Below are positions 22,525 to 24,425 of a stretch of DNA of 64,000 nt, one piece after another. This DNA comes from Actinobacteria bacterium IMCC26077. Its GTDB lineage: Bacteria > Actinomycetota > Actinomycetes > Nanopelagicales > Nanopelagicaceae. The stretch lies in assembly GCA_002284915.1 (NCBI GenBank), contig CP015606.1, positions 124,001 through 188,000 on the forward strand, read 5' to 3'. Every line of letters begins with the position of its first letter. Within the stretch, counting starts at the first letter, position 1. The position numbers were made by a program, and so were the translations under genes. Below the pieces are notes generated by a model that saw only the letters and a list, made by a program, of their open reading frames with translations, had not been told where the DNA came from and made no database searches.

Positions 22525-22534
22525 ACAGATAATC

Positions 22535-22568
22535 AAAAAGACCCGGGGATTTCTCTCCGGGTCTTTTT
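22535..22568 (+). terminator. Rho-independent terminator after acs (hairpin A1)
   Basis: The arm AAAAAGACCCGG pairs with CCGGGTCTTTTT, giving a GC-rich stem with A and T tracts on either side, so it can work in both directions. A nearly identical hairpin (A2) occurs at 23983-24016, where no plus-strand gene precedes it. The two therefore look like parts of a duplicated unit. Confidence 0.9.
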
Positions 22569-22570
22569 AC

Positions 22571-22850
22571 TGTAACTCAGCTACTTAACCTTATCCAGGT
22601 TGTAGAGCATTTCTTCGACTAAGGATCTTAACTCTACACGATTACACATTCTCCACAAGCTTTTTCTATCAACACATTCAAATTATTAGGTGAAGGATGT
22701 CTACTCTTCGAGTTACTTTCTTATTGCGTCCCGCTGTAGCTCAATGGACAGAGCGCATCTTCGACTAAGACTGAGGTTGCGGGTTCGATTCCCGCCGGCG
22801 GGTCGCACACGAAACAACGTTGGGAGTTAGTCGCCCCTACGTTGTTTTTT
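22571..22850 (+). ncRNA. Candidate structured RNA cassette 1 (tRNA-like plus complementary hairpin)
   Basis: A protein-free 330-bp gap holds, in order: hairpin CTAC-AACC/GGTT-GTAG (22581-22605); an arm with the loop sequence CTTCGACTAAG (22613-22623); a small hairpin ACTC/GAGT (22703-22713); a tRNA-like cloverleaf (22730-22802) whose 9-nt loop TTCGACTAA repeats that sequence exactly 146 nt downstream; and a terminator-like hairpin B1 (22812-22850), stem AAACAACGT/ACGTTGTTT plus GGG/CCC, 9-nt loop AGTTAGTCG. TTAGTCG is fully complementary to CGACTAA of the tRNA-like loop. A second cassette repeats this design. Direction and promoter are inferred; no known RNA family was recognised. Confidence 0.7.
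22730..22802 (+). tRNA. tRNA-like element 1, non-canonical anticodon arm
   Basis: The acceptor CCCGCTG pairs with CGGCGGG (one G-T pair). The D arm is GCTC/GAGC with loop AATGGACA, and the T arm GCGGG/CCCGC has the canonical loop TTCGATT, so the tRNA elbow is intact. The anticodon arm is not normal: a bulged stem and a 9-nt loop TTCGACTAA (22760-22768) replace the usual 5-bp stem and 7-nt loop. CCA is not encoded; instead flanking TGCG (22725-22728) and CGCA (22804-22807) extend the acceptor helix. It is unlikely to work as an ordinary tRNA. Confidence 0.6.
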
Positions 22851-22900
22851 ACACGGAGAGTAATTGCGACATAAATCAGAAGAGACGATAGCTCATCGAT

Positions 22901-23944
22901 TTAGTAGCCGAGTTTGAAGGCTGCCACGATGTGTGGGGCGGCCTTCTTGTATAGCTCCTGGGTGCTGATGCCGAGCGATTTTTTAATGTTTGCATTGAAA
23001 GAATCGACTTTGATCTGGTTCTCCACGATTTTGCGGTAGCTATCGAATCCATAATTGGCGATAACCCACTCGTAAAGTAACTGCCCGACGGCGTACGAAG
23101 CTTCATGGACATCTTCGCGATTATTTCGATTCTCCATCAAGGTGAGCGCCTTTACGACCCCAGCTTCGCTCTTTAGTTCACTAAAGATCTTCACTTCGCG
23201 CTGATAGAGTTTTTCGCCGATGAAACTTCGATATAAGTCGAGATAGGCTGATCTACTTTTTGATGCGAGGGCAAATGAGATGGTATTCGCCGAGCCTTCT
23301 CGGAATGTAGGTGGCGAGTATTTGTCATACAGATCTGAACTAGGCCAGCCAAATTCGCGCCCAACATTGAGGTGATAATCCTGCACCACGTGGAAATACT
23401 CATGGGGCATGACCTGTACTGCGTACTTCCTTAGTGATTGAACAGTAGCTTTGCTATGAACAACTAAGCCAGCATGACCTTGCCAACCTTTTTCACTTTG
23501 CATATACCAAGCAGCTAAACCCAAATTGTGTTCTAGGCCCTTGCCTTGTTTCCAATCCGCAAACCACCTACCGAGATCGTCGAAGTATCGCCCAAGAATT
23601 GCATCTGCTTTGATTTTCTTCTCTTCTTTTTCGGTATAGAGATAGAGATTCATCACTTCTTCATTGGGAAAGAAGGTGGCGAAGAGTTTTGAGGAATACT
23701 CAATTTGCCCAACATATAACTTACGTAAGTCCTTGGGAAACGAATCGCTGATGTCATATTTGATTGTGAAGTTCTCAGAATTACCCTTATTAGCAGCGCT
23801 ACGGATTTTGTTGTAAGCCTTGGTCTTGGTGGCTTCATATATTTTCCGCTGACTCACGCTGGCGTGTGCGCTAGAACTTGCTAAGGTCGAAAATAAAAGT
23901 GCTACCGCCATAATTAGCCCACAGGATCGGCTACGGTTTCTCAC
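22901..23944 (-). CDS. Secreted HExxH protein, putative zinc metalloprotease
   Basis: The GTG at 23944 follows a TATACT box by six bases, suggesting a leaderless transcript; a GTG nine codons upstream is the alternative. A signal peptide (RSCGLIMAVALLFSTLASSSAHA) precedes about 320 residues. The motif MPHEYFHVVQD is an HExxH zinc site, and FREGSANT about 35 residues later supplies a likely glutamate ligand. The layout resembles gluzincin peptidases of unknown substrate. Similar proteins lie at 39936-40994 and 41288-42832. Two noncoding cassettes flank the gene. Confidence 0.7.
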   Translation of the reverse strand: MRNRSRSCGLIMAVALLFSTLASSSAHASVSQRKIYEATKTKAYNKIRSAANKGNSENFTIKYDISDSFPKDLRKLYVGQIEYSSKLFATFFPNEEVMNLYLYTEKEEKKIKADAILGRYFDDLGRWFADWKQGKGLEHNLGLAAWYMQSEKGWQGHAGLVVHSKATVQSLRKYAVQVMPHEYFHVVQDYHLNVGREFGWPSSDLYDKYSPPTFREGSANTISFALASKSRSAYLDLYRSFIGEKLYQREVKIFSELKSEAGVVKALTLMENRNNREDVHEASYAVGQLLYEWVIANYGFDSYRKIVENQIKVDSFNANIKKSLGISTQELYKKAAPHIVAAFKLGY

Positions 23945-23982
23945 CTTAGAAGTATATCGTTTGCCACTCACATCTGCCCATC

Positions 23983-24016
23983 AAAAAAGACCCGAGGATT
24001 TCTCTCCGGGTCTTTT
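23983..24016. terminator. Hairpin A2, near-copy of the acs terminator
   Basis: The arm AAAAGACCCG pairs with CGGGTCTTTT and the loop region matches hairpin A1 almost base for base. It lies about 40 nt upstream of the HExxH gene start (minus strand) and just before cassette 2, with no plus-strand gene to terminate. It may stop transcripts approaching from the right, or be the 5' part of the duplicated cassette. Confidence 0.7.
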
Positions 24017-24280
24017 CTTCTAGTAGCTCGTTTTTCCGAGCACCCCTTTGGCTAAGTGATAACAGGATACCTCGTGAGTGCTATTCACACATCACCAATA
24101 TGCACAGATTCTAATTTAAAAAACTTGTGCACTTCTTGAAGCACCTAAATTTCCATTTGCTCCCACGGTAGCTCAAGGGATAGAGCCTCCCCTTTGGCTA
24201 AGGGGTGGGTTGCGGTTTCGAATCCCGCCCGTGGGACGCAAACAAAAAGCGCTGGGAGTTAGCCACCCCAGCGCTTTCTT
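24017..24280 (+). ncRNA. Candidate structured RNA cassette 2 (paralogue of cassette 1)
   Basis: The same order as cassette 1 with different bases: CTTTGGCTAAG at 24046-24056; a hairpin GTGC/GCAC at 24127-24143; a tRNA-like cloverleaf (24162-24235) with loop TTTGGCTAA, the 11-mer lying exactly 146 nt after its upstream copy; and hairpin B2 (24245-24280), stem AAAAGCGCT/AGCGCTTTC-like plus GGG/CCC, loop AGTTAGCCA. TTAGCCA is complementary to TGGCTAA of the tRNA-like loop, so the variable triplets CGA/TCG in cassette 1 and TGG/CCA in cassette 2 covary. No open reading frame of note lies within. Confidence 0.7.
24162..24235 (+). tRNA. tRNA-like element 2, non-canonical anticodon arm
   Basis: The acceptor CCCACGG/CCGTGGG pairs perfectly. 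The D arm is GCTC/GAGC with loop AAGGGATA. The T arm GCGGT/CCCGC has a T-C mismatch at its inner pair, where functional tRNAs almost always have G-C; the loop is TTCGAAT. The anticodon arm is CCCC/GGGG with a 9-nt loop TTTGGCTAA (24193-24201). CCA is absent; flanking TTTGC and GCAAA can extend the acceptor with one bulged base. Confidence 0.6.
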
Positions 24281-24425
24281 GTTTGTAGAGCTCCCCATGA
24301 CTTGAGATTTTTAAGCTACCACATCGACAAAGCACCATAATATTAATGGAAGCTATTTATAAATTCACTTAGCAAAAGTAAACAGAATGTAATACGACAA
24401 GAATAAAATTACAGAGCGTGATGAA

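Follow-up and report, generated by a model that had tools for sequence, protein, structure and literature searches.

The closest described systems to the locus analyzed here are the T-box, the antisense control of ColE1-type plasmids, and the CreTA toxin-antitoxin. A T-box recognizes a tRNA in trans, both by its specifier loop and at the NCCA end, and controls a downstream gene; RNAI and RNAII of ColE1, which are transcribed from the two strands of one DNA segment, control a replication primer. In plasmid control of the ColE1 type, pairing sets which copies interact (on compatibility, see PMC9458437). CreTA, a type VIII, RNA-RNA toxin-antitoxin whose modules are diverse in sequence, consists of two small RNAs. 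One of them, CreT, acts on the tRNA supply by sequestering a tRNA through its mini-ORF and is itself not tRNA-shaped; the other, CreA, serves as a crRNA-like guide with which Cascade represses the promoter of the toxin (PMC8501985). Here, we report on two cassettes in a 64-kb window, the whole stretch of DNA that was analyzed (bases 124001-188000 of a 1.55-Mb single-contig genome), each of which is likely to encode a pair of divergent small RNAs, namely, a tRNA mimic with a kissing terminator and the antisense RNA that controls it, with both transcripts being predicted. Nanopelagicaceae, probably the family sampled in this study, are streamlined actinobacteria that are abundant in freshwater.

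RESULTS

A tRNA fold with an extended acceptor helix

The cassettes and their relatives were described by two covariance models, R1 for the tRNA-like together with its hairpin, with all five strong copies of the source genome in the training set, and R2 for the antisense RNA, with antisense RNAs 1 and 2 of the window among its training members; structure and covariation statistics were drawn from 119 distinct tRNA-like sequences from relatives. The cloverleaves recognized in the initial annotation proved to be real: tRNA-like 1 (22725-22807, + strand) and tRNA-like 2 (24157-24241, +) reached 48.2 and 43.4 bits with the Rfam tRNA model (RF00005), both above its cut-off of 29, and ARAGORN called them tRNA-Val(GAC) and tRNA-Ala(GGC), respectively. 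Their R1 scores were 113.6 and 102.8 bits, both as R1 training members. The anticodon loops had been described as 9 nt long, and their sequences were as claimed (TTCGACTAA at 22760-22768 in tRNA-like 1, between a D arm and a T arm, and TTTGGCTAA at 24193-24201 in tRNA-like 2), but a normal 7-nt loop closed by a weak 31-39 pair fits each of them equally well. What had been overlooked was the acceptor helix, which spans 12 bp in both copies rather than 7.

Across the 119 sequences, 91.8% of the pairs of the structure were kept, compared with 33-47% for slid versions; this alignment was fitted to R1, which favors the nested helices and spares the kissing helix described below because the latter is not part of the model. 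The 12-bp acceptor helix was 95.6% paired, with double changes in 11 of the 12 pairs, including the pairs that extend the standard seven. The D arm was nearly invariant (92% mean pairwise identity; A after GG in 112/119), and the anticodon stem was the most variable part, with 38% mean pairwise identity and only 70% of its positions paired. The triplet at the anticodon position was mostly GAC or AAC, and the closest body in the source genome, tRNA-likes aside, was that of a tRNA-Arg. Taken together, comparative sequence strongly supports the tRNA fold and the 12-bp acceptor helix.

The calls by ARAGORN and Rfam would suit ordinary tRNA genes, or tRNA pseudogenes, that happen to lie beside chance hairpins. 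The genome, however, holds separate tRNA-Val(GAC) and tRNA-Ala(GGC) genes outside the cassettes, and the two cassette copies are therefore extra. As a group, the tRNA-likes depart from a functional tRNA gene in the 7-bp acceptor stem, the usual G1, and the normal 3' end: acceptor position 1 was A in 62, G in 48, and C in 12, thus A or C in most, and the bases 3' of the acceptor were mostly CGC, not CCA. The covariation along all 12 acceptor pairs, the hypervariable and incompletely paired anticodon stem, and the cognate antisense copy described below likewise argue against this reading, which we regard as extremely improbable. A search of Rfam matched the tRNA-likes to no family other than tRNA. 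Judged by its sequence, the tRNA-like is no ordinary tRNA, and the annotation of such genes as tRNAs by tRNA finders is a warning.

A kissing helix between the anticodon loop and the terminator loop

A terminator hairpin lies after each tRNA-like, with a loop sequence as initially reported. In hairpin 1 (22813-22850, +; loop AGTTAGTCG at 22825-22833), TTAGTCG (22827-22833) pairs with CGACTAA (22762-22768) of the anticodon loop, and in hairpin 2 (24245-24281, +; loop AGTTAGCCA at 24257-24265), TTAGCCA (24259-24265) pairs with TGGCTAA (24195-24201). The motif CTAA-N(40-68)-GGGAGTTAGNNNCCC occurred twice in the window compared with 0.00 expected from shuffles. The covariation between loop and hairpin was no accident of two copies: the 7-bp helix was 95.2% paired in 15 hand-picked relatives, with five of the seven pairs doubly changed, and a check in the wider set of 119 distinct relatives gave 87.3% paired positions and double compensatory changes, again in 5/7 pairs. 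When whole loops were shuffled among relatives, the paired fraction was 0.813 compared with 0.875 observed, and 0/1000 shuffles reached the observed value, a test that, like the other shuffle tests among relatives, overstates significance because the relatives share ancestry and the tests ignore the tree. The helix was also evident in the 41 relatives that carry no antisense copy (0.854 paired compared with 0.779 shuffled, 0/1000).

Two parts of the original description had to be modified. The CTAA/TTAG half is not constant, since CGAA/TTCG is common in relatives, and a minority of relatives break the helix (e.g., T.C at pair 43-117 in 13/119). Five or fewer of the seven kissing pairs were formed in about one copy in six. 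Comparative sequence thus strongly supports a cis kissing helix between the tRNA-like and its terminator hairpin, with exceptions. In genus g4 (L022 [G098], 481-1614; L354, 14648-14783), reading by eye hinted at a possible variant pairing, in which a segment following the tRNA-like has its complement in the variable region instead of the anticodon loop.

A predicted antisense RNA gene on the other strand, upstream of the tRNA-like

The upstream part of each cassette, which had escaped the initial annotation, repeats the 5' strand of the anticodon arm plus the loop, with matches at 12/15 and 14/15 nt, and looks like a gene for an antisense RNA that diverges from the tRNA-like. The predicted antisense RNA 1 (22531-22623, - strand; R2 62.0 bits, E 1.3e-13, as a training member of R2) would begin with CUUAGUCGAAGAAAUGC, antisense to tRNA-like 1, and continue through a hairpin and GAGUUACAG, antisense to the D arm CUGUAGCUC, into a bidirectional terminator-like hairpin, AAAAAGACCCGGGGATTTCTCTCCGGGTCTTTTT (22535-22568). 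The predicted antisense RNA 2 (23980-24056, -; R2 63.5 bits, E 5.2e-14, likewise a training member) would carry CUUAGCCAAAGGGGUGC at its 5' end, followed by a hairpin and a bidirectional terminator (23984-24018). A possible third antisense RNA (24243-24306, -), which was read by eye, is weak, and was missed by model R2, has CUCAAGUCAUGGGGAGC at its 5' end, a -10 box TAGCTT at 24313-24318, and no adjoining tRNA-like; its 3' end is the reverse of the preceding terminator, and a similar segment occurs in G002. The two units flank a gene (22901-23971, -) for a 356-aa protein with a weak match, below the curated cut-off, to DUF5700 (putative zinc peptidase).

In relatives, the opposite strand shows the same layout of a TAnnnT box, an antisense segment, a variable part, the motif GAGYUACA, complementary to UGUAGCUC of the D arm, and a terminator-like hairpin, with runs on both sides in 44 of the 54 hairpins found by a simple scan. 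A cognate copy matching at >=11/15 within 230 nt upstream was found for 78/119 distinct tRNA-likes, a match that scrambled controls (first set) rarely reached. The antisense segment paired with the anticodon stem at 93.1% of positions (54.1% shuffled, maximum 60.5) and with the anticodon loop at 95.1% (80.4% shuffled), percentages that are raised by the selection of upstream copies for likeness to their own tRNA-like. The transitions among the differences between antisense and target were G.U-tolerant in 42 cases and intolerant in 12 (p 5e-5), an excess that fits antisense pairing because RNA pairing predicts differences that leave G.U. Re-pairing of the upstream copy with the 3' anticodon strand of the tRNA itself was considered and rejected as the source of this bias, since at sites with C in the copy and T in the tRNA-like, the 3' partner was more often A (13) than G (7).

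Predicted duplexes averaged -44.7 kcal/mol for cognate and -30.7 kcal/mol for non-cognate combinations, and the cognate tRNA-like ranked first for 30/43 antisense RNAs; at all seven loci with more than one pair, every antisense RNA favored its own tRNA-like. In the window, antisense RNA 2 was predicted to bind tRNA-like 2 at -46.5 kcal/mol compared with -30.0 kcal/mol for tRNA-like 1, and the cognate match of cassette 1 was weak (about -30 to -32.0 compared with -29.2 kcal/mol for tRNA-like 2). Orthogonality is imperfect in the window and also in L353, both of which contain some tRNA-likes predicted to bind the antisense RNA of another unit equally or better. Cognate complementarity that coevolves, as antisense control would require, was nevertheless found, and comparative sequence strongly supports the cognate antisense match. 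Of its two partners, the antisense RNA matches the anticodon arm better than the terminator loop does.

Pairing of the two genes is not obligatory: no upstream antisense copy was found for 41/119 tRNA-likes, and some antisense genes lack an intact mimic. The tRNA-likes without an antisense copy include those of L277, L319, L326, L335, L337, and L340, several of which sit shortly after a stop codon. Some upstream parts (L348 and L324) carry two tandem antisense segments with a -10-like box before each, and in L345 (G095:C1, 16332-16780), an antisense gene is followed by a glutaredoxin-like gene in the place of the tRNA-like and then by a terminator with the loop TTTAGTCA. Such solitary antisense genes, together with the ability of the conserved GAGYUACA to pair with many tRNA D arms, would be consistent with an antisense RNA that is a genuine regulator in trans of mRNAs or tRNAs, with the tRNA-like serving as its sponge or decoy. 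We consider this unlikely, as the targeting segment varies copy by copy and the full tRNA core, the 12-bp acceptor helix, and the kissing terminator exceed the needs of a sponge.

Promoter signals and the number of transcripts

Antisense RNAs 1 and 2 are preceded by the -10 boxes TAAGAT (22625-22630, -) and TATCCT (24064-24069, -), respectively, which are supported by sequence and family statistics; a TAnnnT box lay 5-16 nt before the antisense 5' end in 72/78 relatives compared with 17.9 in shuffles. On the + strand, a -10-like box TTACTT (22713-22718), weak relative to the consensus TAnnTT, precedes tRNA-like 1, and TAAATT (24146-24151) precedes tRNA-like 2. The consensus TAnnTT was present about 7-12 nt before the acceptor helix in 111/119 relatives compared with 13.9 shuffled, and it was kept in all 41 tRNA-likes without an antisense copy. 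The two -10 boxes are strongly supported by comparative sequence, while promoters and terminators remain predictions. Together, they point to transcription in both directions from each cassette: to the left, an antisense RNA of ~70-95 nt, and to the right, an RNA of ~125 nt that comprises the tRNA-like and its terminator and starts at the acceptor helix. The cassette had been proposed to be one RNA of 250-300 nt; the kissing helix does join the tRNA-like to its hairpin, but the cassette as a whole is probably not one such RNA.

These signals also bear on the idea, put forward in the initial annotation, of a single cis-acting RNA switch that uses the loops of the tRNA-like and of the terminator as a sensor or a T-box-like attenuator. 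The covariation of the kissing helix even where the antisense copy is missing is in keeping with such a switch. However, a -10 box lies immediately before the acceptor helix, the upstream part contains a leftward promoter, and the genes after the hairpin are convergent or unrelated. The T-box-like scheme itself found no backing, as neither the gathering nor the permissive Rfam search returned a T-box match and no downstream regulated gene was apparent, with the next genes in the window convergent and the neighbors in relatives varied. A cis-acting switch is, in our estimation, very improbable.

About 60 nt before the acceptor helix (-70 to -45), 89/119 relatives carry a TTATnCACA-like box compared with a shuffled mean of 0.7. 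The window copies, TTCTCCACA (22649-22657, +) and ATATGCACA (24098-24106, +), are degenerate versions of this element. The 6.5 kb around dnaA (L448, G000:C1:281500-288000) contain TTATCCACA twice and TTTTCCACA once, and both are absent from the 64-kb window. The box resembles these DnaA-box candidates of the genome and is compatible with a candidate DnaA box.

Distribution and mobility of the units

The source genome contains five strong R1 copies (>100 bits; best ordinary tRNA, 58.5), two of them in the window and three at 193.0-194.7 kb, as well as a degenerate one at 190.7 kb. At the presence threshold of E <= 1e-19, R1 matched 115/296 family genomes in 12/17 genera, and complete genomes without such a match exist; the order-level search sampled only the family of the source and added nothing beyond it. 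In a class sample of 247 genomes, matches outside the family came one per genome at 74.6-84.4 bits; these were rejected as family members and taken as ordinary tRNAs because the two that were read are both tRNA-Arg. The pair of tRNA-like and antisense RNA was not found outside the family in this sample or in viral contigs. Tighter tRNA-like patterns had no match in the viral contigs, and when all contigs, viral and genomic, were scanned for the hairpin motif, the matches were mostly due to chance.

Between acs and a DUF305 gene, the source genome has two units together with the putative-peptidase-like gene, and the corresponding sites in G003 and G004 are empty, lacking the whole unit, bidirectional terminator included. 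The absence of this terminator from the empty sites indicates that it belongs to the cassette and not to acs. G002 (L359, G002:C2) carries one unit after acs with TTAATTAGG at both sides, a sequence that occurs once in the empty sites and may mark the insertion. Arrays of two or three units were found in G302, G003, and G022.

This gain and loss of units, the G002 unit between its repeats, and the direct and inverted repeats formed by the copies of the anticodon arm could point to an element that works at the DNA level, with the arm copies as recombination sites or as targets of an RNA-guided protein. Against this, the G.U-type asymmetry and the compensatory helix changes fit RNA pairing, no recombinase was seen by eye beside the units, and Cas1 was absent from 296/296 family genomes, with other guided proteins still possible. 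A DNA-level role is thus no less improbable than the cis-acting switch. We also considered whether the repeated anticodon arms might represent an integron or attachment sites but, given the G.U asymmetry and the promoter signals, did not retain this interpretation.

DISCUSSION

Our preferred model is that of an antisense-controlled tRNA mimic. Both RNAs would be made, the rightward one starting at the 12-bp acceptor helix, folding as the mimic, and ending in a terminator hairpin that kisses the anticodon loop through its own loop and may shield it in this way until the antisense RNA invades. The first 15-17 nt of the leftward RNA would be antisense to the 5' strand of the anticodon arm and the loop of its own partner, and its GAGYUACA would be antisense to the D arm, such that pairing would unfold the mimic; binding may then silence or destroy it. 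Hypervariable specificity could keep the copies in one cell from cross-reacting. With a tRNA-Arg-like body and a Val-like anticodon triplet, the mimic may act on the translation machinery and have to be restrained, as in an RNA-only toxin-antitoxin, and a mimic that acts on this machinery and is kept in check is the most likely purpose. The identity of the effector partner, the toxicity of the mimic, and the relevance of the DnaA-like box we infer only.

A more specific form of this explanation takes the antisense RNA as an antitoxin, arrays of mostly orthogonal pairs as addiction modules, and the mimic as the toxin, which could occupy, for instance, a synthetase, EF-Tu, the ribosome, or a tRNA-processing enzyme. 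The patchy presence, the arrays, and the precise empty sites would agree with this, as would the predicted preference of antisense RNAs for their own partner within a genome and the existence of antisense genes without an intact mimic. Mimics without antisense often have another possible safeguard, an upstream segment of 8-12 nt complementary to the 5' strand of the acceptor (15/41 copies without antisense compared with 1/78 with it). However, many mimics without a cognate antisense gene keep an apparently intact promoter, and their toxicity is conjectural, so that we entertain the toxin-antitoxin form only tentatively. Broader still, and rather doubtful, is an RNA-only addiction or defense module that combines a tRNA-shaped effector, a kissing lock, a private antisense RNA, and many largely orthogonal pairs, possibly linked to replication through a promoter with a DnaA-box-like site.

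If the model of an antisense-controlled mimic holds, these units constitute an RNA family that is absent from Rfam 15 and found in a whole family of streamlined actinobacteria, and the same anticodon loop would be contested by two helices, a kissing one in cis and an antisense one in trans. Whether a tRNA mimic can be an effector and whether an antisense RNA can unfold a tRNA fold become testable questions, and a further one is how many separate RNA-RNA specificities originated in one lineage. No description of such a pair was found in the literature covered, with most subscription papers outside that coverage.

Comparison with known systems places the cassettes among several of them. They share with ordinary tRNAs (RF00005) and tRNA-like structures the cloverleaf, the D arm with GG, and the TTCRANT T loop, and they differ in the 12-bp acceptor helix, the mostly missing CCA, the hypervariable anticodon arm, and a terminator of their own that kisses the anticodon loop. 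Recognition of an anticodon loop by RNA next to a terminator is reminiscent of the T-box (PMC4919913), whereas its specifier loop, NCCA-end recognition, and downstream control were not found for the cassettes. As in CreTA, there are two small RNAs, here predicted from promoters and terminators, in modules that are diverse in sequence; unlike in CreTA, the match covers the transcribed D arm and anticodon arm rather than a promoter, and a tRNA-shaped RNA stands in place of the CreT mini-ORF; the search for Cas1 was negative in all 296 family genomes. As with RNAI and RNAII of ColE1, the pairing between sense and antisense RNAs would decide which copies interact, but here complementarity between the two RNAs is limited to local stretches, their genes are separate and divergent, and what is targeted is a tRNA mimic that carries a terminator. 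The antisense principle is old; the novelty lies in its being directed at a tRNA mimic, in the kissing terminator, and in the diversification of cognate pairs.
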